Source of the DNA: Calothrix sp. HK-06 | GTDB lineage: Bacteria > Cyanobacteriota > Cyanobacteriia > Cyanobacteriales > Nostocaceae | DNA length: 61,622 nucleotides | NCBI RefSeq assembly: GCF_001904745.1 | Contig: NZ_MRCD01000051.1 | Location: forward strand, 1 to 61,622 | Reading direction: 5' to 3' | Shown here: in pieces, positions 1-61,622 of the stretch | Position numbering within the stretch: the first letter of the stretch is position 1 | Layout of the letters: each line of letters opens with the position of its first letter | Position numbers and translations under genes: made by a program | Notes under the pieces: generated by a model | What the model was told of the DNA's origin: nothing | What the model saw: the letters and a program-made list of their open reading frames with translations, nothing else | The model's database searches: none

Positions 1-24
1 CATAAAAAATAAGTATTAATACGA

Positions 25-45
25 GGCGGGCAATAAGCCCACGCC
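25..45. repeat. Dispersed hairpin repeat, GGGC/GCCC type with CCACAAG tail
   Basis: A short inverted repeat (GGCGGGC, 5-nt loop, GCCC-A-CGCC) is followed by ACAAGAA. The same design, a G/C hairpin beside CTTGTGG or CCACAAG, recurs near 8852, 24158, 52691, 52727 and 58945. I treat these as one dispersed repeat family. Function is unknown. Confidence 0.6.
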
Positions 46-187
46 ACAAGAAATAAGTGAAGATTTTTTTATTTGGAAGTCCCTTAAGTGTTGAGTGATA
101 ATCTGATTATTTTCATCCATTTTTATGGTGTTGCATAAACGATTAAAAGCAAACATGTAAGTCAGTAAATGTAAGGGGAGGTTTACC

Positions 188-838
188 TTGAAAACTGAAC
201 AATATGAAAACATCATAAACTTCTGGTTTCCCAACCAAGCAAGCGATGATATTGGGACGATGGTTCGTCAGTGGGAATGGTGGTTTCGTGGCGGTGGAGA
301 TGCCTATATAACCGAGCATTTTTCACTGCTACTGGAACAAGCTACGCAAGGTGAACTCGGCGCCTGGTCAAATGAACCACGGTCACGACTCGCGCTTATT
401 ATTATCCTTGACCAGTTCTCACGAACTATTTATAGGGGAACTGCTAAAGCATTCGCACAGGATGAAAAAGCTTGTGCGCTGACTCTTGAAGGAATCGACG
501 TTGGTCACTACGCTGCTCTTGAGACACCTTGGGAGAAGACCTTCTTTTTACTGCCACTAGGACACTCTGAGGATATCAAAAACCTAGAGTTGGTAATTAA
601 GCTTGCAGATGAACTTGTTTATGAGGCGCCACAGGAGTATCGCGCTTTGCTAGAGTTTTCAGCAACGCAAGCGCGTGGACATCGGGACGTGATTGCACGG
701 TTCGGGCGCCATCCTCATCGCAACGAAATACTAGGGCGCCAATCAACCCCCGAAGAACTTGAGTACCTTGAAAAAGGAGAGTTCGTACATAGGCGCCCTT
801 TTCCGTCTCACCTGTCGCAATTTCTCTCCAACACTTGA
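188..838 (+). CDS. DUF924 family protein
   Basis: A 216-residue protein with the full DUF924 pattern: an N-terminal FWF motif, the W..WF segment, LDQFSRTIYRGTAKAFA in the middle, and a GRHPHRNEILGR..TPEELEYL block near the C-terminus. The family folds as helical TPR-like repeats and has no established activity; its length is normal. Translation probably starts at TTG 188, because a strong ribosome binding site (AGGGGAGG) lies just upstream and no ATG is better placed. No operon partner: the next gene starts 128 bases later. Confidence 0.85.
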   Translation: MKTEQYENIINFWFPNQASDDIGTMVRQWEWWFRGGGDAYITEHFSLLLEQATQGELGAWSNEPRSRLALIIILDQFSRTIYRGTAKAFAQDEKACALTLEGIDVGHYAALETPWEKTFFLLPLGHSEDIKNLELVIKLADELVYEAPQEYRALLEFSATQARGHRDVIARFGRHPHRNEILGRQSTPEELEYLEKGEFVHRRPFPSHLSQFLSNT

Positions 839-966
839 AGCTCTGCTTAACGCAATTATTGACAAGTTTAGTGTTGAGTTGAAAACAGTGCATAAAGATA
901 AAAAGCAAACATATCAAGTAAGTGAAGGTGAAAATAAACTTTCAAACAATCGTTAATACTAACTAA

Positions 967-1464
967 ATGGACAACTCAATTATGAAACTCACAATTCAAT
1001 CTATTGCTCTTACTACCTTACTGGCAGTATCTTCTGGAATCGCATTTTTTGGCGCCGCTGACCAAGTTTTCGCAAAAATTGCCCAAGCAGACCAAGGCAA
1101 AATTAGTAAAGTAATAAGCGCGCGTCCTTCAATTGTCGGTAATTGGAAAGGGTTGATTATACCCCAAGGTGATGATACTTCCACATCGATAGAAATTGAT
1201 GTGCTACCTCAAGCCGGAAGCACTAAGCAAGGAACTTGGAAATTCTGGGGATATGATTCACAGAATAATAAAAATATTGTTTTTCAAAGCGGTACTTTAA
1301 TTGCTACAGTTGATAATAATAATGTGATTCTGGAATTAAAAGATAAAGGTAAAACAATGATGAAATTCCAGAGCAAACTCAAAAATAGCAAACAACTATC
1401 AGGTGAATCTTTCGATGGTAAAAGTCAGATAAAATATTCAATTAACTTGGATAAAGGTCAGTAA
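967..1464 (+). CDS. Secreted hypothetical protein
   Basis: A protein of 165 residues (160 if the second Met at 982 is used, which places the positive residue next to the hydrophobic core). Residues 9-35 form a signal peptide ending near VFAKIA, so the mature protein is exported. The mature part is a small beta-rich domain with many Asn and Lys residues and a GNWKG...GTWKFWGYDS...SGESFDGK pattern, like small lipocalin-like or tissue-inhibitor-like secreted cyanobacterial proteins. No catalytic motif was recognised. It stands alone; a decayed haemagglutinin-type relic follows on the other strand. Confidence 0.6.
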   Translation: MDNSIMKLTIQSIALTTLLAVSSGIAFFGAADQVFAKIAQADQGKISKVISARPSIVGNWKGLIIPQGDDTSTSIEIDVLPQAGSTKQGTWKFWGYDSQNNKNIVFQSGTLIATVDNNNVILELKDKGKTMMKFQSKLKNSKQLSGESFDGKSQIKYSINLDKGQ

Positions 1465-1465
1465 A

Positions 1466-1814
1466 TTAGCGTATACAGCAGCCTGCAAGTAGATGAAATA
1501 CAAACTTATAAGCTGAGATTCTTGTGGCATCGCTACCAGCAAGGATAACGTTCTCTTGGACATTTAGGGTAATGTTACCTGCGTTGCCACTATTGCTGCT
1601 GTTAGTAAGAATTTGTCCACCATTCATCGCAGTAAAGGTGTTCGCGTTGACGGTAATGCTACCCCCAAACCTTGTCCTTTTGAACTAGCAGCCAGTCCAG
1701 CACCATTCGCACCAGTACTATCAAATAAGATTGACTCACGGGCATTTATATTTAAACTACCTGAATTTCCTTGTCCATTGGTACTAGCAATGAGTTTGCG
1801 GCGCCTGCATTGTT
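1466..1814 (-). pseudogene. Relic of a filamentous-haemagglutinin-type repeat protein
   Basis: Reading the minus strand from about 1814 down to the stop near 1464 gives roughly 115 residues of typical two-partner-secretion exoprotein repeats: GNSGSLNINARESILF, then GLGGSITVNANTFTAMNGGQ, then SGNAGNITLNVQENVIL. These Asn/Gly-rich beta-helix repeats belong to proteins of many hundreds of residues. Here there is no start, no secretion domain and no further repeats on either side, so this is an internal fragment of a lost gene. The plus-strand open frame over it is a shadow. Confidence 0.75.
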
Positions 1815-1816
1815 AA

Positions 1817-2098
1817 GGTCGTTACTGGAACTACGATGCAGTTCCCAGCCATAATAAAGACTTGAAAACAATTCAAAAATCGTATCTCAACGGCTTTAAT
1901 TACTCTAAAACATTTGCTACCTGGCTTATTAATTTTGACAATAGTCAGGCAATAGTAAAAGATTTAAATTACGGTATGGAATATGCCAAGTTTCGCCGGA
2001 TATGGAGATTTTATTTAATCTGGTTTTCACGCAATTTCGCTAGTTGTGATGGTGAATATAATGGTAACGGTCAGTATTTAATGACTCACGCTTCTTAA
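1817..2098 (+). pseudogene. Relic of the C-terminus of a CFA-synthase-like methyltransferase
   Basis: The frame open from 1817 to the TAA at 2096 encodes about 93 residues. The part YSKTFATWLINFD...FRRIWRFYLIWFSRNFAS...GQYLMTHA matches the C-terminal end of cyclopropane-fatty-acid-synthase/SAM-methyltransferase proteins (Y.KTL..W..NF, then .R.WR.YL....A.F, then .Q....). The SAM-binding Rossmann part, normally about 250 residues upstream, is absent, and the frame is cut by a stop at 1814. I read it as a truncated relic. Family assignment is from pattern only. Confidence 0.5.
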
Positions 2099-2161
2099 AA
2101 TCCTGTCTGCTCAACTTAAAGAAGAGCGAGTATTCATCACATTCCATATAGGTTTCTGAAC

Positions 2162-2701
2162 TTAATTCTCTGGACAAGTAATAACACATCCTTTTGGCCA
2201 TACTGATAACAAATCCTCTCGTACCCAACCAGCAGCATTATTAGGGAACTGAACACGATACCAGCGGTATGAATCATACTCTTTGAATGATTCGGAGACC
2301 GTTACCAAATCACCCGAAAGTCCGTAGTGCAAAATTTTACTCTGTAAGCTAGGCGCCGAGCGCACGTTAATTTTATCCCCGCGATTGCCCGTTAACGTCG
2401 CATAACTCTTGCTACTCGGCTTAAATGAGACTAAATTGCTTCGTATCCAACCGTCTGGTGTTCCTTCTACTTCTGGTCGCACGTAATACCAATAATTGCC
2501 ATCATTTCCCATCGTTATATTCAAAACCTCGACATTACTGCCCGGTGGTAATACTTGCAACACGCTTGCTGTTAAAGAGGCACCTGTTCGCAGATTGCTA
2601 TCGGTCGTTAAGGTTGCCGGACGTGCCATACTAGGTAATGTCCCAGCTATCAATGTTCCAAAACTCAATAATGCCACTGACAACTTTGTCATTAAACCCA
2701 T
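2162..2701 (-). CDS. Secreted protein with two bacterial SH3 domains
   Basis: A 179-residue exported protein. Residues 1-27 are a signal peptide (MTKLSVALLSFGTLIAG...SMA). Two SH3_3-type domains follow: ATLTTDSNLRTGAS...VLPPGSNVEVLN with GWIRSNLV, and ATLTGNRGDKINVRSAPS...GDLVTVSE with GWVREDLLS. The N.R.GPS-like motif at the start of each is the family hallmark. Such domains bind cell-wall peptides, and the protein presumably works in the periplasm. The start at 2701 is preferred over the ATG at 2755 because GGAGAAGTT precedes it and the signal peptide then begins at once. The mature C-terminus has two Cys (CVITC). Confidence 0.8.
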   Translation of the reverse strand: MGLMTKLSVALLSFGTLIAGTLPSMARPATLTTDSNLRTGASLTASVLQVLPPGSNVEVLNITMGNDGNYWYYVRPEVEGTPDGWIRSNLVSFKPSSKSYATLTGNRGDKINVRSAPSLQSKILHYGLSGDLVTVSESFKEYDSYRWYRVQFPNNAAGWVREDLLSVWPKGCVITCPEN

Positions 2702-3094
2702 AACTTCTCCACTCATACAGTTAATAAATTGAGAATCAAATATAACTTGAACCAATTTGGCTTAAGTGTAAATACAGTGGCTATTGAAGATTTTCCGGAA
2801 TTGCGAATATAGCACCTTAAGAGTTTATTCGTGGCGCCTATCAAATATGCAGGACAGGCTAGAAGCCTATCCTACGGGAAAAATACAATTTTGTAGTGAA
2901 CTATGTTACAGTATTAACACACAAGATAACTGCTTTTATGATTTTTCCACCCTGGTAAGCTCCTAGAAAATTATTCAGCAAGCAATTCGCTTTACTTTTA
3001 AGGCGAAGATTTTGCTCGTGGATTCCCCTCCTTTGAACCAACCTTGTAAGGATTTTGCGTTGGTATCAAATTTTGAGGATGGGAGAATTACAAG
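2702..3094. other. Non-coding gap with one hairpin
   Basis: No gene is seen in these 393 bases. An imperfect hairpin of the form AGGACAGGCT-AGAAGCCTATCCT lies at 2851-2873 and runs into CTACGGGAAAA, a string that recurs in the repeat patch at 60770-60840. The last 60 bases must hold the promoter and ribosome site of the MFS gene (GGATGGGAGAA before ATG 3095). Confidence 0.5.
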
Positions 3095-4267
3095 ATGCGA
3101 TTTAATGGTAAAAACAAAGTTACTAAGAATGTAGTTTTACTAACCTTCACCTTCTTAGTTATTGAATTATTAGATGAACTTGTTGATGGAGTACGTGGCG
3201 CCGCATGGCCTTTGATTCGTAATGACTTGCATCTTTCTTATGTACAAGTCGGGATGTTACTTACAATACCTAATACCATCAGTCGCTTAATAGAACCAGT
3301 TCTGGGCATACTAGGTGATATTGGTTTCAGGCACCAGCTTATCTTGGGTGGAGGTGTAGCTTTTGCTATTTCTTTGTTGCTAGTTTCCTTTAGTGAAAAT
3401 TTTCCGCTATTATTAGCTGCGTTTGTGTTGTTTTATCCAGCTTCAGGCGCCTTTGTAAGTCTTACCCAAGCGACTTTAATGGATATTGAACCTACACGAC
3501 ACGAGCAAAATATGGCACGTTGGACATTAGCTGGTTCTGTTGGAAATGTCATTGGACCGTTGATTTTAGGTTGTGCTGTGGCATTACATCAAAATTGGCG
3601 AAGTGCATTTTTAGTATTAGCAGTACTAACGCTGTTGATATTGGTGATGCTGTGGAATCCAATTAAAAATTTACCTACATCTGAACAACTTAATGAACCA
3701 ACACATAGTTTTAATTCAGGGATAAGCACTGCTTTTGAAGCCTTAAAGCAGTCTGAAGTAATACGTTGGTTAACTTTGCTGCAATTTTCTGACTTAATGC
3801 TTGATGTTTTACGTGGCTTTTTAGCATTGTACTTTGTCGATGTGATTGGTGCAAACAACACACAGGCAAGTTTTGCTGTAACTGTATGGTTAGGAGTAGG
3901 ATTACTGGGAGATTTTTTAATCATTCCTTTACTAGAACGAGTGCGAGGATTAGATTATTTGAGATTTAGCGCCATAATTGTCTTATGTCTTTACTCAGCT
4001 TTTTTGATTGTACCAAATATAAATGTCAAATTTATAATTCTTGGCTTGCTGGGTTTTTTCAACGCTGGTTGGTACTCTATTCTTAAAGGGCAATTATATA
4101 CAGCTATGCCAGGACAAAGTGGTACAGTAATGACGCTAGATAACTTGTTTGGTTTAGTTGGTGGTTTTATGCCACTAATTCTTGGGTTACTAGCTAATCA
4201 ATTTGGTTTACAGAACATTATGTGGCTTTTACTTGTGGCACCACTAGCATTGCTAATGGGAATTTAA
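3095..4267 (+). CDS. MFS transporter
   Basis: A 390-residue inner-membrane permease with about 11-12 hydrophobic segments in two halves split by a hydrophilic loop near residues 190-215. The first-half loop between segments 2 and 3 (EPVLGILGDIGFRHQL) is the MFS signature region (G..D..G.R). The Gly-rich ending of segment 5 (GSVGNVIGPLILG) also fits. The protein ends soon after the last segment (LALLMGI), slightly early. Substrate is unknown. A P450 gene follows 88 bases downstream on the same strand, with a perfect palindrome between them, so co-transcription is uncertain. Confidence 0.8.
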   Translation: MRFNGKNKVTKNVVLLTFTFLVIELLDELVDGVRGAAWPLIRNDLHLSYVQVGMLLTIPNTISRLIEPVLGILGDIGFRHQLILGGGVAFAISLLLVSFSENFPLLLAAFVLFYPASGAFVSLTQATLMDIEPTRHEQNMARWTLAGSVGNVIGPLILGCAVALHQNWRSAFLVLAVLTLLILVMLWNPIKNLPTSEQLNEPTHSFNSGISTAFEALKQSEVIRWLTLLQFSDLMLDVLRGFLALYFVDVIGANNTQASFAVTVWLGVGLLGDFLIIPLLERVRGLDYLRFSAIIVLCLYSAFLIVPNINVKFIILGLLGFFNAGWYSILKGQLYTAMPGQSGTVMTLDNLFGLVGGFMPLILGLLANQFGLQNIMWLLLVAPLALLMGI

Positions 4268-4286
4268 AAATAGGTTCATTCCATAC

Positions 4287-4318
4287 ATGTAGAGACGTTA
4301 CATGTAACGTCTCTACAT
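4287..4318. repeat. GTAGAGACG palindrome, copy 1
   Basis: A perfect 32-base palindrome whose arms begin ATGTAGAGACG and end CGTCTCTACAT, lying between the MFS and P450 genes. Relatives with the same outer GTAGAGACG arms and different centres lie at 25356, 33608, 36495 and 43139. It can form a long hairpin in RNA of either strand. Confidence 0.8.
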
Positions 4319-4355
4319 TGTTAAAATACTTGTGTGTACTCAAAGGGTAAATATT

Positions 4356-5726: not shown

Positions 5727-5745
5727 AAAGTTAGGTTACAGGTTT

Positions 5746-5850
5746 ATGTATAAAGGAATCCGTTTATTTCTCGACACTGCTGATACACAACAGTGAGCAA
5801 GTAAGCTAATTGCAGAAGGAATTCGAGTAACACTAACCGGGGTTTACGCG
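5746..5850 (+). pseudogene. Relic of a transaldolase-like (fructose-6-phosphate aldolase type) gene
   Basis: ATG 5746 opens a frame reading MYKGIRLFLDTADTQQ, then a TGA, then ASKLIAEGIRVTLTGVYA. LFLDTADT is the N-terminal strand of short transaldolase-like proteins, and LI..GIRVTLTGVYA is their later barrel strand, normally more than 100 residues apart. The middle has been deleted and the rest is gone. The intact transaldolase at 33737 is of the other, long type. Confidence 0.6.
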
Positions 5851-5935
5851 CAAAGCAGATTTTTGGTAAATTTACACCAGTTATAAAAATTGACTCAACG
5901 GCGCCCTTTCACAGTTCGCCGTTTGAGTGAGTTAA

Positions 5936-7742: not shown

Positions 7743-7754
7743 AATATTTCCTGT

Positions 7755-24199: not shown

Positions 24200-24675
24200 A
24201 TTGCTTGCTGTAGTCTCTTTATCTTTCTGCCCAAGTAAAACGCGCGAAGCTAATATAACTTCTGGTAATGCTAGCGCTAACGATGCAAATGAACAGACAC
24301 TAGCAACTTGGCAGTATTAGCAAAAAGCTTTATTTTCTTGCCATTCTTCGCGCGCTAGTTGTAGGTTGGTCGCGCAGTCAAATAAAATCTTTACACCCAT
24401 TGCTATTGGTATTAATGGGTTACGACACACACGTTCTAAACCACCCATAGAAGCTAACCACGCAGTTAAAGCGTAAGTTGCTATCATCAAAAGTCCATCG
24501 GGTGCATTGAATCGTTTATAAGCATAGTTAGAAGCATTCAACTTTATCCGCATTAAAAATTGGAACTGGTGGGTCGGGTAGATGACTAATTATTCCTGTT
24601 TGGTAGAGAGTAACAAGTTGCCCCATTGAACCACCTAGCATCGACAAACCAATAATCGCGCGGCGCCGACTCATG
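24200..24675 (-). pseudogene. Decayed tandem copy of the VKOR-like gene
   Basis: Read from ATG 24675 this copy matches the intact gene at 24765-25295 almost base for base over about 475 bases (MSRRRAIIGLSMLGGSMGQLVT, then NADKV). One extra base near 24541 shifts the frame into a TAA. Farther on, the codon for Glu in the FCEYC motif is TAA, so the active-site CxxC itself is broken (C-stop-Y-C). The reading frame afterwards still encodes QVASVCSFASLALALPEV. The copy is non-functional but recent. The homology ends just upstream of MSRRR. Confidence 0.85.
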
Positions 24676-24769: not shown

Positions 24770-25295
24770 TATTACTTGCTGTGGTTTCTTTATCTCTCTT
24801 TCCAAGTAAGACGCGCGTAGCTAATAGAACTTCTGGTAGTGCAAGCGCTAGTGATGCGAATGAACACACTGAGGCAACTTGGCAGTATTCGCAAAAAGCT
24901 TTATTTTCTTGCCATTCTTCGCGCGCTAGTTGTACATTAGTGGCGCAGTCAAATAAAATTTTTACACCCATTGCTATTGGTATTAGCGGGTTACGACGCG
25001 CACGTTCTAAACCACCCATAGAAGCTAACCACGCAGTTAAAGCGTATGTTGCTATCATCAAAGGCCCATCAGGAGCATTGAAACGTTTATAAGCATAGTT
25101 AGAAGCGTCTACTTTATCTGCGTTAAAAATCGGAACTGGTGGGTCAGGTAAATGACTAATTATTCCTGTTTGGTACATGGTAACAAGTTGCCCCATTGAA
25201 CCACCTAGCATTGATAATCCAATAATTGCACGGCGCCTGCTCATGTTGGGGTTTTTACCTTGCCGCAGTTCCTGACTCAGTTGTATGGGTTCCAT
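24765..25295 (-). CDS. Vitamin K epoxide reductase-like membrane protein
   Basis: A 176-residue membrane protein with about three or four hydrophobic segments. The hallmark is FCEYCQVASVCSF, the VKOR CxxC motif at the start of a helix, preceded by a helix containing FDCATNVQLAREEW. An RR-rich N-terminus (MSRRRAIIGLSMLGGSMG) leads into the first segment. VKOR homologues reoxidise disulfide-forming enzymes using quinones. This one is much shorter than VKOR-thioredoxin fusions and has no attached thioredoxin. Start at 25295 or MSRRR at 25244; the homology with the decayed copy favours 25244. A frame-disrupted duplicate lies immediately downstream. Confidence 0.7.
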   Translation of the reverse strand: MEPIQLSQELRQGKNPNMSRRRAIIGLSMLGGSMGQLVTMYQTGIISHLPDPPVPIFNADKVDASNYAYKRFNAPDGPLMIATYALTAWLASMGGLERARRNPLIPIAMGVKILFDCATNVQLAREEWQENKAFCEYCQVASVCSFASLALALPEVLLATRVLLGKRDKETTASNT

Positions 25296-31978: not shown

Positions 31979-32287
31979 ATGACTATTTACGTTGGAAATC
32001 TCTCTTACCGCGCTACCGAAGCAGACCTAAGAGCAGTGTTCGCAGACTACGGCGAGGTGACTAGAGTAGTCCTGCCTACCGACCGTGAAACTGGTCGGAT
32101 GCGCGGGTTTGCCTTTGTTGACATGAACGAAGATGCCCAAGAAGATACAGCTATTACCGAACTTGACGGCGCCGAATGGATGGGGCGCCAGCTTCGCGTC
32201 AATAAAGCTAAACCACGCGAAGGCGGTGGTGGCGGTGGCGGTAATCGACGAGGAGATTGGGCAGGTAAACAGGAAGCTTATGAATAA
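31979..32287 (+). CDS. RNA-binding protein with one RRM domain (Rbp type)
   Basis: A 102-residue protein: one RRM from residue 2 with RNP2 IYVGNLSY and RNP1 RGFAFVDM, and a short Gly-rich tail (GGGGGGGNRRGDW). This is the typical cyanobacterial Rbp build; homologues bind U-rich or G-rich RNA, are often cold-induced and affect mRNA localisation near thylakoids. It is followed by a strong terminator at 32389. No rpsU gene was found downstream. Confidence 0.9.
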   Translation: MTIYVGNLSYRATEADLRAVFADYGEVTRVVLPTDRETGRMRGFAFVDMNEDAQEDTAITELDGAEWMGRQLRVNKAKPREGGGGGGGNRRGDWAGKQEAYE

Positions 32288-32553: not shown

Positions 32554-33603
32554 ATGGCTCAAGCATCAGAATATGCCGATTTATCGATGGTTAACGCTGA
32601 TCAAGATGGCTTAGACCGTGATTGTACAACCCTGTCACGTCACGTTCTACAGCAATTACAGAGTTTTTCCCCAGAGGCACAAGATTTAAGCGCGTTAATG
32701 AATCGTATCGGGCTTGCAGGTAAGTTAGTAGCTCGTCGTCTCAGTCGCGCTGGGTTGATGGAAGGTGTATTGGGATTCACTGGAGAGGTTAATGTTCAAG
32801 GTGAATCGGTTAAAAAGATGGATGTATACGCCAATGACGTGTTTATCTCCGTCTTTAAGCAAAGCGGTTTGGTATGTAGACTCGCATCCGAAGAAATGGA
32901 TGAACCTTACTATATTCCAGAAAATTGTCCGATTGGTCGGTATACTTTGCTTTACGACCCAATAGATGGTTCGTCAAATACTGATACTAATCTGAGTCTT
33001 GGCTCTATTTTCTCAATTCGTAAACAAGAAGGCGAAGATTTAGACGGCAAAGCCAGTGATTTGCTCACTGCTGGACGTAATCAAATTGCTGCTGGATATA
33101 TTCTCTACGGGCCCAGCACAATGCTCGTATATACCATCGGTCGTGGGGTTCATTCGTTTACACTCGACCCCAGTTTAGGCGAGTTTATCTTAACTGAAGA
33201 AAATATTAAGATTCCTGATCAAGGCTCTGTTTACAGTGTTAACGAAGGTAACTTCTGGCAGTGGGATGAATCAATACGTGAGTACATTCGCTATGTCCAT
33301 CGGACAGAAGGATATACCGCTCGCTATAGTGGCGCAATGGTCAGTGATATTCATAGAGTATTATTGCAAGGCGGTGTGTTCTTGTATCCCGGTACAGTCA
33401 AAAAACCTGAAGGTAAACTACGTTTGCTCTACGAAACGGCGCCATTAGCATTCATTATCGAACAAGCTGGTGGTCGTGCTACTACTGGTGTTATGGATAT
33501 ATTGGATGTAGTAGCAGAAAAACTGCACCAGCGTACTCCCTTAATTATCGGTAGTAAGCATGACGTGGCAAAAGTAGAGTCATTCATTAAAAATGGTCAT
33601 TAA
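32554..33603 (+). CDS. fbp: Fructose-1,6-bisphosphatase class 1
   Basis: A 349-residue cytoplasmic enzyme converting fructose-1,6-bisphosphate to fructose-6-phosphate. Metal and substrate motifs: [33 protein letters not shown], and the phosphate site [18 protein letters not shown] with [20 protein letters not shown] near the end. Length is normal. It is the first gene of the block with tal, zwf and opcA and starts after AAGAGG. This order is known from Nostoc, where the operon feeds reductant to heterocysts. The gap to tal holds two palindromes that may reduce read-through. Confidence 0.9.
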
Positions 33604-33607
33604 TGAA

Positions 33608-33672
33608 TGTAGAGACGTGACATGTCACGTCTCCAGATGCGGGTATCAGACGCGACATGTCGCGTCTCTACA
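33608..33672. repeat. GTAGAGACG palindromes, copies 3 and 4
   Basis: GAGACGTGACATGTCACGTCTC (33612-33633) and AGACGCGACATGTCGCGTCT (33648-33667) lie side by side between fbp and tal, with GTAGA before the first and CTCTAC after the second. Confidence 0.75.
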
Positions 33673-33736
33673 AACAAACAATAATTCCTTTCATGTGGCT
33701 ATAGCGGAGATTAATTAGCAATCTGCGAGGGAAATT

Positions 33737-34882
33737 ATGGCAACCAATCATCTACTGGAAATTAAAAACCACGGTCAAAGTATCTGGATGGATAATTTGA
33801 CTAGGGATATTATCAAATCAGGAGAACTCAAAAATCTCGTCGAAAACCAAGGCATTTGTGGAATTACCTCAAACCCTGCCATCTTTGAAAAGGCTATATA
33901 CGGTAATGCTATCTATGATGCTGATATCGAAGCAGGTGTTCGCGCCGGATTACCTACGTATAAAATCTACGAATCGCTTGTATTTGAAGATATTCGCAAT
34001 GCCTGTGACATTTTACGTCCTGTATATGATGCTACAGATGGTTTAGATGGTTATGTAAGTATAGAAGTCCCACCGACTATTGCCCACGATACTGAAGCGA
34101 CAATTAAAGAAGCTCGTCGCTACTACGAAGAAATTGGCAAAGACAACGTAATGATTAAGATTCCCGGAACAGAAGCCGGGTTGCCTGCTGTAGAGACTGT
34201 AATATCGGAAGGGATTAACGTTAACGTCACACTGCTATTTAGTGTGCAAAGTTATGTTAATTGTTTCTGGGCTTATATTCGTGGCTTAGAAAAACGTTCA
34301 GCAGAAGGTAATGCTATTAACAAAATTTCTTCTGTCGCTAGTTTCTTTCTTAGCCGAATCGATAGCAATATTGATGCCAAAATCGATGCGACACTTAAAA
34401 AGGGGATTCCCGACATCGCTGTAGATGCTAAACTACGCGCAGTGAAAGGAAAAGTAGCAATTGCTAACGCCAAAATCGCCTACCAAGAGTATAAGAAAAT
34501 TGTACAAGACGAACGCTGGCAAGCTTTAGCAGCAAAGGGTGCAAATGTACAACGGTTATTATGGGCTTCTACAAGTACTAAAGACCCAAGTTACAGTGAC
34601 GTTATGTACGTTGATCAACTAATTGGTCCAGAAACCGTTAATACTTTACCTCCTGCAACAATCGAAGCTTGTAGCGACCATTGTGACGTTGCAAGTCGCG
34701 TGGAAAGCAATGTTGACGAAGCTTACAACCTTATTGATAGTCTTAAAGACCCAGATATCAATATTGACATTAATACCGTTATGGATGAACTTCTCACCGA
34801 CGGTATTGATAAGTTTGTCAAACCTTTTGAGTCATTAATGAACTCTTTAGAAGACAAAATTAAGCTATTGTCTCCTGTGTAG
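33737..34882 (+). CDS. tal: Transaldolase
   Basis: A 381-residue enzyme of the pentose phosphate pathway. NHGQSIWMDNLTRDII and GITSNPAIFEKAI form the start of the barrel; the Schiff-base Lys is in VMIKIPGTEAG; NVNVTLLFSV, SVASFFLSRIDS and RLLWASTSTKDPSYSDVMYVDQLIGPETVNTLPP complete it. The length (381) is typical of cyanobacterial long-form transaldolase. It lies between fbp and zwf. An 8-bp hairpin GGTTAGGG/CCCTAACC follows at 34890-34912. Confidence 0.9.
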   Translation: MATNHLLEIKNHGQSIWMDNLTRDIIKSGELKNLVENQGICGITSNPAIFEKAIYGNAIYDADIEAGVRAGLPTYKIYESLVFEDIRNACDILRPVYDATDGLDGYVSIEVPPTIAHDTEATIKEARRYYEEIGKDNVMIKIPGTEAGLPAVETVISEGINVNVTLLFSVQSYVNCFWAYIRGLEKRSAEGNAINKISSVASFFLSRIDSNIDAKIDATLKKGIPDIAVDAKLRAVKGKVAIANAKIAYQEYKKIVQDERWQALAAKGANVQRLLWASTSTKDPSYSDVMYVDQLIGPETVNTLPPATIEACSDHCDVASRVESNVDEAYNLIDSLKDPDINIDINTVMDELLTDGIDKFVKPFESLMNSLEDKIKLLSPV

Positions 34883-34889
34883 GAAATAT

Positions 34890-34912
34890 GGGTTAGGGAC
34901 TAGCCCCTAACC
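34890..34912. repeat. Hairpin after tal
   Basis: GGTTAGGG-ACTAGC-CCCTAACC; a candidate weak terminator or processing stem between tal and zwf. No T-run. Confidence 0.5.
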
Positions 34913-34947
34913 TAATCTAAAATCCATTCATTCTTCATCAAAATTCT

Positions 34948-36477
34948 ATGGTCAGTCTGCTAGAAAATCCTTTGCGGGTTGGTCTGCAACAACAAGGGAT
35001 GCCCGAACCCCAAATCATTATAATCTTCGGCGCCTCCGGAGACTTGACTTGGCGTAAGCTTGTACCATCGTTGTACAAACTGCGAAAAGAACGACGCATA
35101 CCACCAGAAACAACCATTGTTGGAGTCGCGCGTCGCGAGTGGACTCACGAATATTTCCGTGAACAAATGCGGAAAGGTATGGAAGAAGCTCACGGTGGTG
35201 TACATCCAGAAGAACTCTGGCAAGACTTTGCTCAAGGTTTGTTTTACTGTTCCGGTAACACCGATAAACCCGAAGATTACCAAAAACTTAAGAAATTTTT
35301 AAGCGAACTTGATGAGAAACGAGGAACGCGCGGCAACCGCATGTTCTACCTCTCACTTTCTCCTAACCTATTCGCCGAAGCTATTAAACAGCTTGGTAAT
35401 GCCAAGATGCTTGATGACCCTTATAAGCATCGTTTGGTAATTGAAAAACCATTTGGTCGTGATTTAGCTTCTGCAAAAAGTCTAAACGTTGTAGTACAAA
35501 AACACTGCAAAGAAAACCAAGTTTACCGTATTGACCACTATTTAGGTAAAGACACAGTACAAAACTTGTTGGTATTTCGTTTTGCCAACGCCATTTTTGA
35601 ACCATTGTGGAACCGTCGTTTTGTAGACCACGTACAAATAACAGTTGCTGAAACCGTCGGTGTTGAAGACCGCGCAGGTTACTACGAATCATCCGGCGCC
35701 TTACGAGACATGTTGCAAAATCACCTCATGCAACTTTATTGTATGACCGCGATGGAGGCGCCTAACGCAATGGATGCAGAAAGTATCCGTACAGAAAAAG
35801 TAAAGGTGCTACAAGCTACTCGACTGGCAGACGTTAATAACTTAGATTTATCCGCAATACGCGGTCAATACAGTTCTGGCTGGATGAAGGGCAAACAAGT
35901 ACCTGGGTATCGCGAAGAACCAGGTGTTAACCCCAACTCAACCACACCCACATTTGTAGCGATGAAATTTGTCATCGATAACTGGCGCTGGCAAGGTGTT
36001 CCTTTCTACCTTAGAACTGGAAAGCGAATGCCCAAAAAAGTCAGCGAAATATCCATCCACTTCCGCGAAGTCCCCTCGCGTATTTTCCAATCTGCCGCTC
36101 AACAAGTTAACGCCAACGTTTTGGCAATGCGAATTCAGCCTAACGAAGGAATTTCGCTACGCTTTGAAGTGAAAATGCCTGGAGCAGACTTCCGTACTCG
36201 TTCAGTAGATATGGACTTTAGTTATGGTTCGTTTGGTATCGAAGCAACATCAGATGCATACGACCGTCTATTTTTAGATTGCATGATGGGAGACCAAACC
36301 CTATTTACGCGCGGTGACGAAGTTGAAGCCGCATGGCAAGTAGTAACACCAGCACTAAGTGTTTGGGATGCATCCTCTAACCCAATAGTAGTTCCTCAGT
36401 ATGAAGCTGGTACCTGGGAACCTGTTGAAGCCGAACTACTCATTAACCGCGACGGTCGTCGTTGGAGAAGACTTTAA
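34948..36477 (+). CDS. zwf: Glucose-6-phosphate 1-dehydrogenase
   Basis: A 509-residue enzyme oxidising glucose-6-phosphate with NADP+. Seen: the nucleotide motif [12 protein letters not shown], the substrate motif [13 protein letters not shown] with the catalytic His, and [18 protein letters not shown]. Complete and normal length. In cyanobacteria it is redox-controlled through OpcA, whose gene follows 118 bases downstream across a repeat cluster. Confidence 0.95.
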
Positions 36478-36480
36478 AAA

Positions 36481-36572
36481 AGTGCTGAGTATAGAGACAC
36501 GATTAATCGTGTCTGTACGAGTGCTGAGTATCTCTTAACTCACTACTCAGCACTAGCACTCAGCACTCATCA
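36481..36572. repeat. Repeat cluster between zwf and opcA with GTAGAGACG-type palindrome, copy 5
   Basis: AGACACGATTAATCGTGTCT (36495-36514) is flanked by AGTGCTGAGTA on both sides, then CTACTCAGCACT and AGCACTCAGCACT. Confidence 0.7.
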
Positions 36573-36595
36573 CTGTTATATACTTAGTAAAAATT

Positions 36596-37969
36596 ATGGT
36601 TTCTCAAGCTCCTACAATTTATTCACTTCAGGCGCCTAAAGATATTTCGCTAACTGAAATCGAAGCGGAATTAGGGCAAATTTGGCAAAGTTATGGTATG
36701 GCAGGTGAAGATGGTGCTTTACCTGCTGCAACTCGTGCAACAACTTTTACTTTAGTTGTTTATGAACCAGAAGAAACGCAGCAACTTTTAGCAGCGTTAG
36801 GATTTTACAATGGTCCAATTGATGGGATATTAGGACCTCAAACTGAAGTGGCGCTGCGGGCTGCCCAAAAAGCTTTTAAAATTCCACAAACAGGAACCGC
36901 AACACCCGACACACTTACAATATTGCGAGGAGAAGCAGCGAAAAGTCGAGCTTCGGGAACAATTTCTGAGGCAGCTTCATCTATGGGAGACTCAAAAAGT
37001 CCTCGTATCGCCGATGAAATTGCACTTCGTAATCCCTGCCGTATAGTAACTCTTTCTCCGGTCGCGGGTGCTGATGAAGGTGTAAAAGCTCAAGTTGCTG
37101 CTTATTGTCCTATTCAAAAACAATCATCGGGTGCGCTGGTTTGTTGTGAATACCTGACTTTAACAGGTACAGCAACAGCACTCGAACGTATTGGTGGGAT
37201 GATACCAGCGTTATTAATTGGTGGTTTGCCTAAATTTTTATGGTGGAAAGCAACACCCGACCCAAATAACCCATTATTCAAACGCTTGTCAGCAGTTTGT
37301 AATAACGTAATTGTTGACTCCTGCAATTTTAACGAACCTGAAAAAGATTTACTCAACTTACAAGAGTTAGTCGAAAACGGTGTACCATTAGCAGACCTTA
37401 ACTGGCGCCGAATTTCTGGTTGGCAAGAATTAGCAGCACAAGCATACGACGCACCAAACCGTCGTGCAGCGCTAAGTGAAATTGACCGTGTAAATATTGA
37501 TTACGAAAAAGGTAGTCCAGTACAAGCACTACTATTTGTCGGTTGGTTTGCTAGTCGTTTAGGTTGGAAACCAGTTGGCTATCAACAAGAAAAAGGCGAT
37601 TACGACATCACCAAAATCAAATTCCTTTCCAACGACCAACGACCTATCGAAGCCGAATTAGCAGGTGTACCAATGGGAGAAGGTGGTCAAATACCAGGAG
37701 ACTTAATTGCATTACGCTTAAGCTCCACCAATATAAATGCTAACTGCGGTACACTAATTTGCTCCGAAACAGGTGGCTGTATGCGGATGGAAACTCAAGG
37801 TGGCGCCCAATCTACAGGTTTATTCCAACAAGTAACCTCACTTTCTGAACAAAAAGCAGAAGCCCTATTAAGTCAACAAGTACAACGTTGGGGTCACGAA
37901 GCATTATTAGAAGAAAGCCTAGCAATGACAGCCCAAATTCTAAAATTAGGATTCAGCACCGAAGAATAA
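36596..37969 (+). CDS. opcA: OpcA, glucose-6-phosphate dehydrogenase assembly/redox protein
   Basis: A 457-residue activator of G6PDH. An N-terminal PG_binding_1-like segment at residues 60-112 (LGFYNGPIDGILGPQTEVALRAAQKAF) precedes the OpcA domain. Three Cys lie close together at residues 384, 389 and 395 (NCGTLICSETGGC); the last two have the spacing (6) of the Cys pair that carries thioredoxin control in Anabaena OpcA, so redox regulation is likely to be kept. It ends the fbp-tal-zwf-opcA block. Downstream, a hairpin of GGGCGGGTT/AACCCGCCC (37979-38031) ends the unit. Confidence 0.9.
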   Translation: MVSQAPTIYSLQAPKDISLTEIEAELGQIWQSYGMAGEDGALPAATRATTFTLVVYEPEETQQLLAALGFYNGPIDGILGPQTEVALRAAQKAFKIPQTGTATPDTLTILRGEAAKSRASGTISEAASSMGDSKSPRIADEIALRNPCRIVTLSPVAGADEGVKAQVAAYCPIQKQSSGALVCCEYLTLTGTATALERIGGMIPALLIGGLPKFLWWKATPDPNNPLFKRLSAVCNNVIVDSCNFNEPEKDLLNLQELVENGVPLADLNWRRISGWQELAAQAYDAPNRRAALSEIDRVNIDYEKGSPVQALLFVGWFASRLGWKPVGYQQEKGDYDITKIKFLSNDQRPIEAELAGVPMGEGGQIPGDLIALRLSSTNINANCGTLICSETGGCMRMETQGGAQSTGLFQQVTSLSEQKAEALLSQQVQRWGHEALLEESLAMTAQILKLGFSTEE

Positions 37970-38049: not shown

Positions 38050-39417
38050 ATGTCATTAATTATCGCCGGAGAACGCAGTGGGGTGGGCAAGACAACAGTC
38101 ACGCTCGCCCTATTAGCATATTTATGTAAAAATAATTACAACGTACAATCATATAAAGTTGGGCCAGATTATATAGACCCAATGTTCCACCGTTATATAA
38201 CGGGTAAACCAAGTCGCAACTTAGATCCAGTATTAACATCAGAAACTTACGTCAAAGAATGTTTTCACCATCATCGCCAACAAGTCGATATTGCCCTAAT
38301 AGAAGGAGTAATGGGACTATTCGATGGAATTGGAAATAAAACTATTCCCTTCGCTAGCACAGCGCACATAGCTAAGTTATTAAATATACCTGTAATTTTA
38401 GTAGTTGATTGTAGTCGATTATCAGGTTCAGTAGCCGCAATCGTACATGGCTACAGCACACTCGACCTCAGTATAAATATTGCTGGTGTAGTTCTGAACC
38501 GGGTTGGAAGCGACCGTCACTTAGACTTACTCAAAAATGCACTTTTACCATTACAAGTAAAAATCTTAGGTATACTGCGACGTGAAGATAACATATCAAT
38601 CCCCGACCGTCACTTAGGTTTAATTCCAACTAGCGAGCTACCAGAACTTGATGCTATTATCTCCCGACTCGCTGACTTAGGCGCCAATTGTTTTGACTGG
38701 CAAACGTTATTACCGTTGTTGGGGGAAAGGGGAAAGGGGAAACCGAAAAGGGTAGAAGAGAAATATACAGTTAGAATCGCTGTTGCGTTAGATAGTGCTT
38801 TTAATTTTTATTATCAAGATAATTTAGACTTACTACAAAAATTTGGCGCTGAGTTAGTTTTTTGGAGTCCAATCAAAGATAATTTACCCAAAGATATTCA
38901 AGGAATGTATTTTGGTGGTGGATTTCCAGAAGTTTTTGCTCAAGAGTTATTTAACAATATAGGCGCCATTAATAATGTTAAAGCTGCCATAAACGCAGGA
39001 ATCCCTACCATAGCTGAATGCGGTGGTTTGATGTACTTATGTGAAAAAATTATCGACTTTGAAGACAAAGCTTGGCCAATGGTGGGAGCATTACCAACTC
39101 AAGCTGTAATGGACAAACGTTTAACTTTGGGTTATCGACGTGCTGTAACGTTACAAAAGAATTTTCTTTTTGATACAAATACAGTTATATATGGACATGA
39201 ATTTCATCGTTCACACTTATTGTGTAACTCAAAGGCGCCTACTTTTGAAACTTACCGTGTTGATACAGAAGAACATACAGGTTTGGAAGGATGGAGTACA
39301 CAATTTAATCTTCATGCTTCTTATATTCACCAACATTGGGGAAATTCTCCAGAAATTCCACAAAGATTTTTAAAATACTGCGCTGATTTTAGTCAAACAC
39401 CTAATTCTTTAACATGA
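38050..39417 (+). CDS. cbiA: Cobyrinate a,c-diamide synthase
   Basis: A 455-residue enzyme of B12 synthesis that amidates the a and c side chains of cobyrinate using ATP and glutamine. Seen: P-loop GERSGVGKTT near the start, KVGPDYIDPMFH, EGVMGLFDGIG, and a C-terminal class-I amidotransferase-like domain with the Cys in TIAECGGLMYL and YGHEFHRS. Complete length. It overlaps the convergent S-formylglutathione hydrolase gene by 25 bases. Its product feeds the cofactor for NrdJ (26392). Confidence 0.9.
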   Translation: MSLIIAGERSGVGKTTVTLALLAYLCKNNYNVQSYKVGPDYIDPMFHRYITGKPSRNLDPVLTSETYVKECFHHHRQQVDIALIEGVMGLFDGIGNKTIPFASTAHIAKLLNIPVILVVDCSRLSGSVAAIVHGYSTLDLSINIAGVVLNRVGSDRHLDLLKNALLPLQVKILGILRREDNISIPDRHLGLIPTSELPELDAIISRLADLGANCFDWQTLLPLLGERGKGKPKRVEEKYTVRIAVALDSAFNFYYQDNLDLLQKFGAELVFWSPIKDNLPKDIQGMYFGGGFPEVFAQELFNNIGAINNVKAAINAGIPTIAECGGLMYLCEKIIDFEDKAWPMVGALPTQAVMDKRLTLGYRRAVTLQKNFLFDTNTVIYGHEFHRSHLLCNSKAPTFETYRVDTEEHTGLEGWSTQFNLHASYIHQHWGNSPEIPQRFLKYCADFSQTPNSLT

Positions 39418-45801: not shown

Positions 45802-47304
45802 TTACGGGAGCCAACGTGGGTAAAAGCCAGCTATTGGTAGTTGTTCGGGTTTTATTTCGGCGGCATTTGATGCGTCGGCAACGGGTAGCAAGGGCATTAG
45901 CCAAAGACTACTGCCTGATATTGTTTCACCTGATGAGGTTTTTAAGTTGCTAGTTGTTGAGGCGCCACCTTCTTGGCTTACTACTTGGTCGAACAGCAAC
46001 CCTAAACCATCGGGTGCAAGACTCATTTGTATATTACGTTGCCCTGCTGGAAGAACTAGTAATGCTTTTTGTTGCCCTGTTTTTAGGTTAATGGCTATAA
46101 AATATGGCTGTTCCAAAAATTGGTCGCCAGGTAATAATTGGGTAATTAAACAGTAAAGATTCGGTGATGCTGCGTCAAATTCACAACCAATTATTGTACC
46201 AGTGGTTTTGATCAGTTCTTTGTTTACACCTTGGTTTGTGACTAAAAATAACGAGCGAGTCGGATTTTGAAAGTCGCGGTTAAATTTAACCATTGCAGCT
46301 TGTGTCCCATCTTTGGAAAACGCTTGTACTAAACCAAACTGAGGTAAAAAGTCAAGCGGTCTGCTACCGTCTTTTTGTAATGGCAAAATTGCTGCACCCT
46401 CACCTTGGGCAACAGCTACCCCTTTGCTATCGGGGGTAATTAAAAAGTCTCCACTTGGTTGACTTTCTAGACGAGTAAGTTTAGTTTGTTCCGATGAATC
46501 TTTACGTGCGGACATAAACCATAACCCAAAATCACCAGGACTATCTTTTTTGCCACGTTGAATAACTATAGTTTTGCCATCGGGTGATAAATCGAATTTT
46601 AGATTTTGATACCCTTCACTATCTAGTACCAAATCCACTCGACTTGCGGGTTGTGCTTCTTCTCCTGGTTTACTCGGAAAGCCTGTAGTGACGGTATATA
46701 TTTTGCCGGATAGCAAATCTTGGTTTGTTTTTGCACGTGCAGAGAATAAAACTTTATCTCCTCCTGGATAAGGTTTAAAGTCCATAACCGCTAGGTCTTT
46801 GGGGGTAAGGACTATTTTTTGGTCTTGCGTCAAGTTCTGAAGTACTAACCTTCCTTGTTCTTCTCCTGTCGCACCAATATAAAGAAGGGCACGGTCGCGC
46901 GTGCGGAAGGCGCCTGAAAAAGGTTGAAGCGTTAAGTTTTTACCCTGTTTTTTGGCAAACTTATCGACTGCTCCCTGTAATTGAACCTTATAATTTGTAC
47001 CATAAGGCGCCGGAGTTAACAGCGTGTACACCATCCGTCGTCCTGCCCAGCTATACTTTCCAGCTAATGGAGGGTCTATTTTTAAATTATTTTCAACACT
47101 TTTAGCATCCATTGGACGACTAAATGTCATGCTGAAAGAAGTATCATCGGCGCCGACTTTTTGATTTTCCCAACTAAAGTTTCTGACGCTTGCCCTAACA
47201 ACATCACCTTGGATAAGTAATATACCAATTAGTACAGATATTATTACTATCAGAGCAATAGAAATACGGTCAATAGGTAATAATGTAAACTTTTTTTTAG
47301 CCAT
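45802..47304 (-). CDS. Membrane-anchored Ig-like/beta-propeller protein
   Basis: A 500-residue protein. A basic start and one helix (residues 9-33) anchor it in the membrane with the rest outside. Residues 40-130 form an SbsA-type Ig-like domain (SFSMTFSRPMDAKSVENNLKIDPP, YGTNYKVQLQ). From residue 160 on there are propeller-like repeats (TPKDLAVMDFKPYPGGDKVLFSARAK, LSPDGKTIVIQRGKK, LAPDGLGLLFDQVV). Possible cell-wall or exported sensor role, unknown. The start at 47304 (MAKKKF) is preferred; a GAAACC repeat lies immediately upstream. Confidence 0.65.
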   Translation of the reverse strand: MAKKKFTLLPIDRISIALIVIISVLIGILLIQGDVVRASVRNFSWENQKVGADDTSFSMTFSRPMDAKSVENNLKIDPPLAGKYSWAGRRMVYTLLTPAPYGTNYKVQLQGAVDKFAKKQGKNLTLQPFSGAFRTRDRALLYIGATGEEQGRLVLQNLTQDQKIVLTPKDLAVMDFKPYPGGDKVLFSARAKTNQDLLSGKIYTVTTGFPSKPGEEAQPASRVDLVLDSEGYQNLKFDLSPDGKTIVIQRGKKDSPGDFGLWFMSARKDSSEQTKLTRLESQPSGDFLITPDSKGVAVAQGEGAAILPLQKDGSRPLDFLPQFGLVQAFSKDGTQAAMVKFNRDFQNPTRSLFLVTNQGVNKELIKTTGTIIGCEFDAASPNLYCLITQLLPGDQFLEQPYFIAINLKTGQQKALLVLPAGQRNIQMSLAPDGLGLLFDQVVSQEGGASTTSNLKTSSGETISGSSLWLMPLLPVADASNAAEIKPEQLPIAGFYPRWLP

Positions 47305-54705: not shown

Positions 54706-54790
54706 TTAGGACTTCTCAATACTACTGCCAATAGTTTTACTACAGTTATAATTCCCAAATTTCCGATAATTGTTTGAAAATGTGAACTTC

Positions 54791-60102: not shown

Positions 60103-60271
60103 TCAAGCTGTCCACTATACCAGTTACAACAGTATATTAATTTGTTTACCACAGAGACACAGAGTTCACAGAAAGAGAGTAAGAAAAATTCCTCAAAGGA
60201 CCCCAAGGTAAGTTTTTTATCTACATAGGGAATAATAAGTACATATAGATAGTACTTGTGATTCCATTACT

Positions 60272-60853
60272 ATGAGTCAAAGTTTGCAAGAAGCTTTAGA
60301 TGAAACTACACCCTCAGAACGTTTGCGAGAATTAGCTACAAGTAGCCAGGTGAAAACACGCTTTGCTGTTGCTCAAAATCCTAATACACCAGTAGATGTA
60401 CTGATAAAATTATTCTCTGAGGCGCCACTCAATGTATTAAATAACCCTGCTCTTTCTCTATTACTATTGGAAAATCCATGTTTTTTTGAAGACCTCTACA
60501 AATCAAATAAGCGTGTATTTCAACAATTAGAGCTACCTAAATTTTTCTTAAAATGGGCGCTTAATAACCCTGAAGCTGAAATTAGGGCTTCTCTAGCAAT
60601 AAGTTCTAAAATTCCTCTGAGCTTTTTGATAAAACTAGCTGAAGACAAAGAGCCAAGAGTACGTATTGCTGTAGCGAGGAATCCTCGTACTCCAATACAA
60701 ATTTTAAATAAACTGTCTCAAGATAATATTTTTAATGTGCGTCGTAGAGTTGGGTTGTGCCTACCCTACCCTACGGGAAAACTACCCTGCGGGAAAACTA
60801 CGTTTACGTTAACGGGATATCCTACCCTACGGGAAAACTTCGTTAACGGATAA
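60272..60853 (+). CDS. LRV (leucine-rich-repeat variant) protein, end overwritten by a repeat
   Basis: A 193-residue protein. LRV-type helical repeats are visible: VKTRFAVAQNPNTPVDVLIKL, EIRASLAISSKIPLSFLIKLAED and VRIAVARNPRTPIQILNKLSQD, each with the N(P)..P...L turn. Residues from about 158 on (LCLPYPTGKLPCGKTTF) come from the CTACGGGAAAA repeat patch, not from LRV repeats, so the native C-terminus is lost or the frame was captured. Divergent from the DUF6745 gene. Confidence 0.6.
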   Translation: MSQSLQEALDETTPSERLRELATSSQVKTRFAVAQNPNTPVDVLIKLFSEAPLNVLNNPALSLLLLENPCFFEDLYKSNKRVFQQLELPKFFLKWALNNPEAEIRASLAISSKIPLSFLIKLAEDKEPRVRIAVARNPRTPIQILNKLSQDNIFNVRRRVGLCLPYPTGKLPCGKTTFTLTGYPTLRENFVNG

Positions 60854-60895
60854 CGGCATACTACGTAAACGCTAACGCTTCACCCAACCTACAAT
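60745..60895. repeat. Composite repeat patch CTACGGGAAAACTAC/ACCCAACCTAC
   Basis: Begins GTTGGGTTGTGCCTACCCTACCCTACGGGAAAACTACCCTGCGGGAAAACTACG, includes several copies of CTACGGGAAAAC and GTTAACG, and ends CACCCAACCTACAA. The GTTGGGTT and ACCCAACC ends are inverted. It spans the end of the LRV gene and the stop of the next convergent gene. Confidence 0.6.
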
Positions 60896-61554
60896 TTATC
60901 AATGCTATCAACAATATCTAGCTTTTCTATTGCGCGTATTTGGGTAGGGGTTAAATTTCCATATACCGCAGGATTAGAGTTATCGCCATTTACATTAAAC
61001 CCTAATTCTTCAATTTTGTTGATTGCTTCATTCACAACTCGCTCGTTTTCTATAGTTTGCTGTTGCGTATCTGTACTTGTTAGAACTGGCGCCTGAATAC
61101 TTTTAACATCTTGACTTTCTACTTTTAATTTAATTACCACAGAGATTTGGTCATTAGGTTTAGAAGAAGTAACTTTTTCAAATAAACCTTGTGATAGTTT
61201 TCCATATTTAGATACATAAGCAGTTTTATCTTGTTGCGCTAATTTCTCTATATTCATTTCTTGTCCATTAGAATCTACTGCTATGTCAAATATCTTGCCA
61301 TTACGTTTATCAACAATGACAAACCCAAATCCAGTTTTACCAAGAGTCCGAAAAGTTGGTTTGAAAGTGTAGACAATTTCTAATTTGTCAATAGGGGTAT
61401 TTACTTTTTTAGATATTTTTTTGAGTGCTGCTTCCTGTATTGATGGTTTAATATTATCTAAATCTGATGATGCTAGTGCGCGTGTATTGAAGTGTGCGCT
61501 GGTTGATAAAATTAGTAATAATAAGCAAGCAGTTGACAGCTTATTTGAGTTCAT
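60889..61554 (-). CDS. Secreted hypothetical protein
   Basis: A 221-residue exported protein: signal peptide at residues 1-28 (MNSNKLSTACLLLLILSTSAHF...ALA). The mature part has two regions: residues 45-110 (FRTLGKTGFGFVIVDKRNGKIFDIAV) and a C-terminal I9/prodomain-like region (PNDQISVVIKLKVES, IEELGFNVNGDNS, VYGNLTPTQIRAIEKLDIVDSIDKL). It looks like a subtilase prodomain or inhibitor without its protease. The stop lies at the edge of the repeat patch. Complete otherwise. Confidence 0.6.
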   Translation of the reverse strand: MNSNKLSTACLLLLILSTSAHFNTRALASSDLDNIKPSIQEAALKKISKKVNTPIDKLEIVYTFKPTFRTLGKTGFGFVIVDKRNGKIFDIAVDSNGQEMNIEKLAQQDKTAYVSKYGKLSQGLFEKVTSSKPNDQISVVIKLKVESQDVKSIQAPVLTSTDTQQQTIENERVVNEAINKIEELGFNVNGDNSNPAVYGNLTPTQIRAIEKLDIVDSIDKL

Positions 61555-61622
61555 TGAAGTAAAGCATTATGTTGGGATTTGCTAAAGACGTTTATAATAC
61601 TGTTCTCTGTTCCCGAAAATGG

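Follow-up and report, generated by a model that had tools for sequence, protein, structure and literature searches.

The stretch analysed here, referred to as the window, is the 61,622-base contig NZ_MRCD01000051.1 of Calothrix sp. HK-06, and the element in question is the palindromic hexamer GGCGCC, which is scattered through its genes and the DNA between them. GGCGCC occurs 117 times in the window, against 3.7 copies expected from independent bases at a G+C content of 39.6% and a mean of 6.2 (maximum 12) in 100 dinucleotide shuffles; the earlier note on this DNA, which had counted about 115 where some four would be expected at about 40% G+C, was close in both figures. The usual highly iterated palindrome (HIP) of cyanobacteria, HIP1 (GCGATCGC), is absent, as that note had also reported, and given that the shuffles give only 0.35 copies of it, its absence from the window is by itself weak evidence. 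The proposal that GGCGCC stands in the place of HIP1 is borne out by the genome as a whole, whose 243 contigs total 9,990,453 bases and hold 15,449 GGCGCC (1546 per Mb, roughly one per 600 bases) against 6 copies of the reversed control CCGCGG, and 88 copies of GCGATCGC beside 66 of its control. Genome-wide, the observed/expected ratio (O/E) of GGCGCC is far from 1 and GCGATCGC is not abundant outside the window. A sample of 357 kb of native sequence was formed from the window and further stretches, minus four HIP1-bearing contigs; within it the O/E of GGCGCC is 28 for independent bases and 17.7 for a first-order Markov model, by which GGCGCC ranks first among all hexamers. The other forms of GRCGYC are scarce (GACGCC/GGCGTC 0.18 and GACGTC 0.10 of the first-order expectation), as are GATC (O/E 0.19) and GGCC (0.15).

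The abundance of GGCGCC is site-specific and independent of codon use. In 384,721 sampled bases, 496 copies lie in open reading frames (ORFs), against 40.6 ± 5.9 in within-gene synonymous shuffles, and 92 lie outside them, in agreement with the note's statement that coding and intergenic DNA both carry the word and with its exclusion of codon choice. A bias of codons or amino acids could be suspected from the Gly-Ala frame, which holds 285 of the 508 coding sites; the shuffles refute it, sites are found in all three reading frames as well as outside genes, and the chance that such a bias makes GGCGCC is negligible. Gly-Ala pairs are written GGC-GCC in 280 of 584 cases (48%) where codon use predicts 14.4, and the reverse pair Ala-Gly is written GCC-GGC in 3 of 522, with 12.9 expected. 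It is also unlikely that GGCGCC is a DNA uptake sequence, which is a longer non-palindromic word preferred by a competence system, given that GGCGCC is a bare palindromic hexamer.

Other words of the genome also depart from expectation. A second palindrome, CGCGCG, is over-represented to a lesser degree (155 in 385 kb of the HK-06 genome; 135 in genes versus 28.3 by synonymous shuffle). It is present at 340-800 per Mb in samples of the genus and at 25 per Mb in genome G220, and Elhai 2015 (PMC4390886) does not give it as an over-represented word in its main text. In the window and the 357 kb of native sequence TGCGCA is down to a single copy (O/E 0.01) and CCATGG, GAGCTC, GCATGC, GTCGAC, TTCGAA and others have zero copies, a scarcity that is a strong restriction-like avoidance. 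Among 50 listed GCGATCGC places, four contigs account for 20. In contigs C17, C21, C75 and C168 (L021-L024), HIP1 is 58-fold over-represented, GATC is near normal (0.89) and the O/E of GGCGCC is lower, at 7.2; these contigs are probably DNA recently gained from HIP1-bearing cyanobacteria.

Distribution in the genus and family

HK-06 belongs to the Dulcicalothrix / Calothrix PCC 7103 group, here called the genus, which has seven species-level genomes. The six congeners are Calothrix PCC 7103 (G340), Dulcicalothrix desertica PCC 7102 (G339), Calothrix PCC 7716 (G344), Calothrix NIES-4105 (G341) and the metagenome-assembled genomes (MAGs) C42_A2020_038 (G342) and FI2-JRJ7 (G343). Counting of GGCGCC in 217 genomes of the family found it abundant in exactly these seven, at 1150-1711 per Mb; none of the other 210 exceeds 111 per Mb, a value from a genome where the control word is even commoner. 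In a sample of the order (291 genomes), the 88 copies of HIP1 in HK-06 compare with 1285-6835 in 28 other family members, and sampling within the genus gave no HIP1 in G339, G340, G341, G343 and G344 (80-200 kb each), 3 copies in 385 kb of HK-06 and 9 in 284 kb of G342, a count to which contamination of the MAG could contribute a little. GGCGCC is the highly iterated palindrome of the whole genus, and its abundance coincides with the near-loss of HIP1. In a tree of four proteins encoded in the window (Table 1), by genes that are putatively the fbp-tal-zwf-opcA set of the Nostocales operon, G342 is basal and G341 next, followed by the remaining five genomes. Six of the seven carry 1511-1711 GGCGCC per Mb, and the basal G342 combines the fewest GGCGCC with residual HIP1 and the most GATC, which fits a gradual replacement of HIP1.

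Two further candidates for a GGCGCC lineage were rejected. The genomes G170, G060 and G008 of family f9, with raised raw counts, have HIP1 and an O/E for GGCGCC of only 0.8-1.5 in the stretches read; G059 has a related methyltransferase, but AGCGCC exceeds GGCGCC there (O/E 4.2 and 2.6) at 53% G+C. Elsewhere in the order, G136 (family f21; L303-L306) has 81 copies of HIP1 and an O/E of 4.4 for ACCGGC/GCCGGT and 2.7 for GCCGGC, a word set that is an alternative HIP of the rCCGGy type, and G159 (family f14; L311) has 59 copies of HIP1 and, in 20 kb, an O/E of 8.6 for GGGCGC/GCGCCC and 7.2 for AGCGCC, perhaps a non-palindromic iterated word.

The kind of feature, and the hexamer itself in one congener, are already known. 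The earlier note was right that alternative HIPs exist, and it could not say whether this one had been reported; in its main text, Elhai 2015 (PMC4390886) reports that the word serves as an alternative HIP in Calothrix PCC 7103 and, from 19 kb of sequence, in Calothrix D253, and for PCC 7103 gives the same picture of near-absent HIP1, low GATC and CGATCG, scarce other GRCGYC forms and two GRCGYC methyltransferases. A literature search judged by title and abstract, subscription papers aside, gave no other relevant report of GGCGCC in cyanobacteria. The same text argues that alternative HIPs are sporadic, do not occur in clades and do not persist, from one genome and the 19 kb of D253, whereas here all seven genomes of the genus carry the word, and two of those have a single match to the methyltransferase family. 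GGCGCC resembles HIP1 as the main text of that paper presents it (PMC4390886), being palindromic, G+C-rich, present at about one per kilobase and apparently tied to a solitary methyltransferase, and differs from it in sequence and in the near-absence of HIP1 itself. It has the marks of an alternative HIP: an outlying G+C-rich palindrome at 1000-2000 per Mb, HIP1 near-absent and, judged by homology, a methyltransferase. What is new is the persistence across the genus, the probable link to an enzyme of the HindVP/BsaHI type, the mutation signature and the apparent dispensability of a second methyltransferase copy.

Gain, loss and conservation of sites

Orthologous DNA of 60-102 kb per congener was aligned, at 80-93% identity. 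In all six comparisons GGCGCC is kept above hexamers composed wholly of G and C: 0.79-0.91 against 0.63-0.71 in four near congeners, 0.72-0.78 against 0.40 in G341 and 0.50-0.76 against 0.28 in G342. An alignment of five genomes has 53 kb in common and 104 majority GGCGCC sites, and among the 37 one-base derived losses at these sites 28 are transitions of the central C/G (12.5 expected) and 6 are other transitions (18.5 expected). When codon and context are matched, transitions of the central C have an odds ratio of 1.88 (p=0.004, or p=0.08 for wobble positions alone), those of the outer C 0.22 (p=0.005) and those of the middle C 0.41 (p=0.13); the totals of this comparison are conservative, since the majority filter removes variable control hexamers. 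A comparison of single changes with G+C-rich hexamers taken as a class sets unlike things side by side and is given no weight. A stricter polarisation, in which both outgroups agreed, left 43 ancestral and 8 one-off sites, which are too few, with 13 central-C losses at the 43 sites, near the GCG background, and it has been superseded. The excess of central-C transitions is what would be expected if a methylated central C were deaminated, and agrees with the base methylated by M.BsaHI, which is the central C of GRCGYC (PMC2413257); the main text of Elhai 2015 (PMC4390886) lists the methylated base for this specificity as unknown.

The words one base away from GGCGCC are skewed in number. GGTGCC is enriched in the genus (O/E 1.4-1.5 versus 0.47 in HIP1-bearing relatives). 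The remaining one-off words occur less often than in those relatives, which are mostly loci picked for carrying the methyltransferase family and so a non-random set; both trends are expected if neighbouring words tend to become GGCGCC and its central C decays. GGTGCC is also poorly conserved, at 0.15-0.47 in six comparisons of 8-19 sites each versus 0.56-0.88 for GGTGCA. Recent gains with flanks little or nearly unchanged are seen at position 4969 of L016, in G339 and G344, and at 36713 of the window, in G344. The possible series at 24662 and 25232 (Table 1) are as the model of Elhai predicts, although two sites are an anecdote. Concerted two-base jumps to GGCGCC were rejected: single cases are striking, but isolated double changes number 35 versus 52 expected.

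Table 1. Coordinates in the window of the site set, of individual sites compared across the genus and of the marker genes
Feature	Position	Strand	Details
GGCGCC site set	1..61622	.	n=117; 105 inside predicted ORFs of at least 80 amino acids
Site, possible series GACGTC-GGCGTC-GGCGCC	24662..24667	.	GGCGCC here, G339, G340, G344; GGCGTC G343; GACGTC G341
Second site with the pattern GACGTC / GGCGTC / GGCGCC	25232..25237	.	
Site with loss in congeners	32184..32189	.	GGCGCC here, G343, G341, G342; GACGCC G339, G340, G344
Four conserved genes	32554..37969	+	Species-tree markers, outside the HIP feature itself
Non-site here	36713..36718	.	GGTGCT here, G339, G340, G343, G342; GGTTCT G341; GGCGCC G344
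Site lost here	38845..38850	.	GGCGCT here; GGCGCC G339, G340, G343, G344, G341
Site	38962..38967	.	GGCGCC here, G339, G344, G341; GACGCC G340; AGCGCC G343; GGTGCC G342
Site	45961..45966	.	GGCGCC here, G339, G344, G342; GGCACC (central transition) G343; GACGCC G340; AACACT G341

The candidate methyltransferase and its restriction partner

The METHYLTRANSFERASE survey gave 10 matches to PF00145 in HK-06 and 79 in the six congeners, and clustering of 30 congener proteins with loci and six HK-06 proteins produced one 5-methylcytosine methyltransferase cluster that spans all seven genomes, its members being of 305-335 amino acids apart from fragments in HK-06. The chromosomal copy of HK-06 is split over the ends of contigs C29 and C207 (the pieces are 95-96% identical) and contig C60 carries two further copies (PF00145, E=6.9e-65 for the C60 copy). 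G339 and G342 each have one match to the family at E<=1e-40 (scored were 10 of 21 first-look candidates in G339 and 10 of 16 in G342), and a single match in two of seven genomes makes the second copy reported for PCC 7103 seem unneeded.

All 15 aligned proteins of the family have the PCQ and ENV motifs, TI in the TL region and a G or A at minus 10, and 13 have an R eleven residues upstream (K in the paralogues L100 and L117). The TL region of GRCGYC enzymes has a conserved R eleven upstream and a G or A nine upstream according to the paper that describes it (PMC2413257), and GRCGYC is among the motifs of Haemophilus influenzae Rd in the RIMS-seq report. By these features the genus methyltransferase is predicted to be of the M.BsaHI/M.HgiDI/HindVP type with the target GRCGYC. 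A GGCGCC methyltransferase, which the earlier note had expected, is thus present by homology, with the difference that its predicted specificity is wider, GGCGCC being one of four forms.

In the four genus loci compared, a RuBisCO-like gene precedes the methyltransferase and an SLH/GHL10 gene follows it, the Pfam names having been confirmed for PCC 7103. Just upstream of the methyltransferase in Calothrix elsteri lies an RE_HindVP ORF (PF09519, E=1.9e-123), and a scan for restriction endonucleases within 3 kb, covering 55 of 80 methyltransferase loci (48 outside the genus and seven within it), found RE_HindVP-like ORFs or fragments at 31 of the 48 and at none of the seven. A tblastn search at 1e-3 gave no RE_HindVP match in 1.8 Mb of genus DNA, overlaps included, the whole genomes lying outside this search. 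The genus locus resembles the BsaHI, HgiDI and HindVP systems in its TL-region features and in the RE_HindVP neighbour of its relatives (PMC2413257), and differs from them in that RE_HindVP is not beside the copies checked and the target is enriched, not avoided.

The methyltransferase family also occurs in 56 of the 210 other family genomes, and the median of GGCGCC is 1.0 per Mb in these carriers versus 5.0 in the 154 non-carriers (p=2e-4, uncorrected for relatedness). Among the 80 named loci with relatives of the methyltransferase, seven, all of this genus, have 29-60 GGCGCC per 21 kb, and the remaining 73 have 0-2. A 658-residue methyltransferase (L002) was rejected as the cause: long matches of at least 58% identity are found in 21 other genomes of 291 with no link to GGCGCC, in a test that scored only four candidates per genome.

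The surroundings of the methyltransferase vary. A 658-residue methyltransferase and an uncharacterised ORF of 435 residues lie near it in PCC 7103 and HK-06 (L145 5204-8495), and PCC 7716 has what by eye appears to be a remnant of the 435-residue ORF (L147 7829-8365). On contig C60, plasmid- or phage-like by eye, L015 3372-14169 encodes a DpdA-family protein (PF23859) together with two methyltransferase paralogues; a DpdA relative is also near the methyltransferase on a plasmid of NIES-4105. In NIES-4105 a toxin-antitoxin pair of the BrnA/BrnT type adjoins the methyltransferase (L148 11137-11705), and it is not seen in the other three genus loci compared.

Upkeep of the sites and its meaning

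It is proposed, with a probability of roughly 0.7, that a solitary GRCGYC methyltransferase redefined the methylated word of the genome after the loss of HIP1, the methylation being presumed from homology and from the mutations at the sites. The ancestor of the genus would have had a GRCGYC restriction-modification system and would have lost its nuclease; HIP1 and its GATC sites being scarce by then, methylated GGCGCC may have been adopted as the abundant mark. Most loss of sites would come from C-to-T change at the methylated central C, and a process favouring GGCGCC over neighbouring words would uphold their number.

Several observations weigh against this proposal. Seventeen loci outside the genus have a methyltransferase of the GRCGYC type and no adjacent restriction endonuclease, and carry 0-1 GGCGCC each with HIP1 present; a lone methyltransferase of this type is not sufficient, and it seems that HIP1 has to be lost as well, which Elhai also proposed. 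The genus locus L149 has an ORF of the Uma2 family two genes from the methyltransferase, and a second family of 5-methylcytosine methyltransferases (L004-like) is present in all seven genomes, 77-97% identical where found, and may contribute to GGCGCC. The 37 losses at majority sites are close in total to the 39.6 expected. Spacing of GGCGCC is near random (coefficient of variation 0.96). When another site lies within 100 bp, a share of 0.37 of the Gly-Ala pairs are themselves sites; the share is about 0.6 at distances of 200-700 bp and 0.27 at 700-1100 bp, and past 1600 bp none of 13 pairs is a site. This share does not rise steadily with distance, unlike the prediction of a distance-limited ratchet. 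Finally, sites present in four of the five aligned genomes outnumber those present in one by 41 to 8 and no one-step gain is seen at 23 one-off majority sites, a pattern that ongoing decay fits as well as fast reversion does.

As the process that upholds the sites, biased mismatch repair dependent on methylation, as proposed by Elhai, is somewhat favoured, although it falls short of an even chance. Next comes selection for the mark, which is rather unlikely, and a relic or some other process takes up the remainder. It is possible that selection acts instead on GGCGCC as a site that binds a protein or serves some other function (a nucleoid, segregation, repair or Chi-like signal) and to which methylation is incidental, and both the conservation above matched hexamers in the diverged congeners G341 and G342 and the roughly fourfold cut in changes of the outer C would follow. 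This is again rather unlikely, for the following reasons: a site-specific protein would need the central C too, yet that base changes more often than in matched controls, GGTGCC is enriched, spacing is near random and sites fill the coding opportunity to the extent of nearly half of all Gly-Ala pairs. Nevertheless, the observed pattern could also arise if the base under selection is methylated and hypermutable.

Vsr repair inflates CCWGG in E. coli, and a methyltransferase-linked enzyme acting on T:G mismatches in the manner of very-short-patch repair could turn GGTGCC into GGCGCC; the low conservation of GGTGCC suggests such rapid interconversion. This is improbable, given that GGTGCC is enriched instead of depleted, by which a simple one-way conversion of the Vsr type is rejected, that gains also arise from words differing at other positions, and that Pfam found no Vsr among 14 neighbouring ORFs at six loci, a search that did not extend to any whole genome. 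A word built up in the ancestor and now in neutral decay is equally improbable: the ratio of 41 to 8 and the lack of one-step gains speak for it, but the density is still high in six of seven genomes and lowest in the basal one, recent gains are seen in L016 and in the window, and conservation over the deeper splits exceeds that of matched hexamers.

The persistence of GGCGCC through the genus bears on the reason for HIP1 in cyanobacteria, which is a question of long standing. Elhai 2015 (PMC4390886) rests its case for a function specific to HIP1 partly on alternative HIPs being sporadic and not persisting, and this argument is weakened by seven species-level genomes that keep GGCGCC even where their aligned stretches share as little as about 80% nucleotide identity. 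The genus offers a natural replicate in which gains and losses of sites are polarised, and a candidate gene. More tentatively, and at somewhat less than even odds, the genus exchanged one genome-wide methylated mark for another, in that a defence methyltransferase without its nuclease gave rise to a new, actively maintained palindrome in the job of HIP1. If this is true, that job would be to provide an abundant G-methylC mark, and would not depend on the sequence of HIP1.

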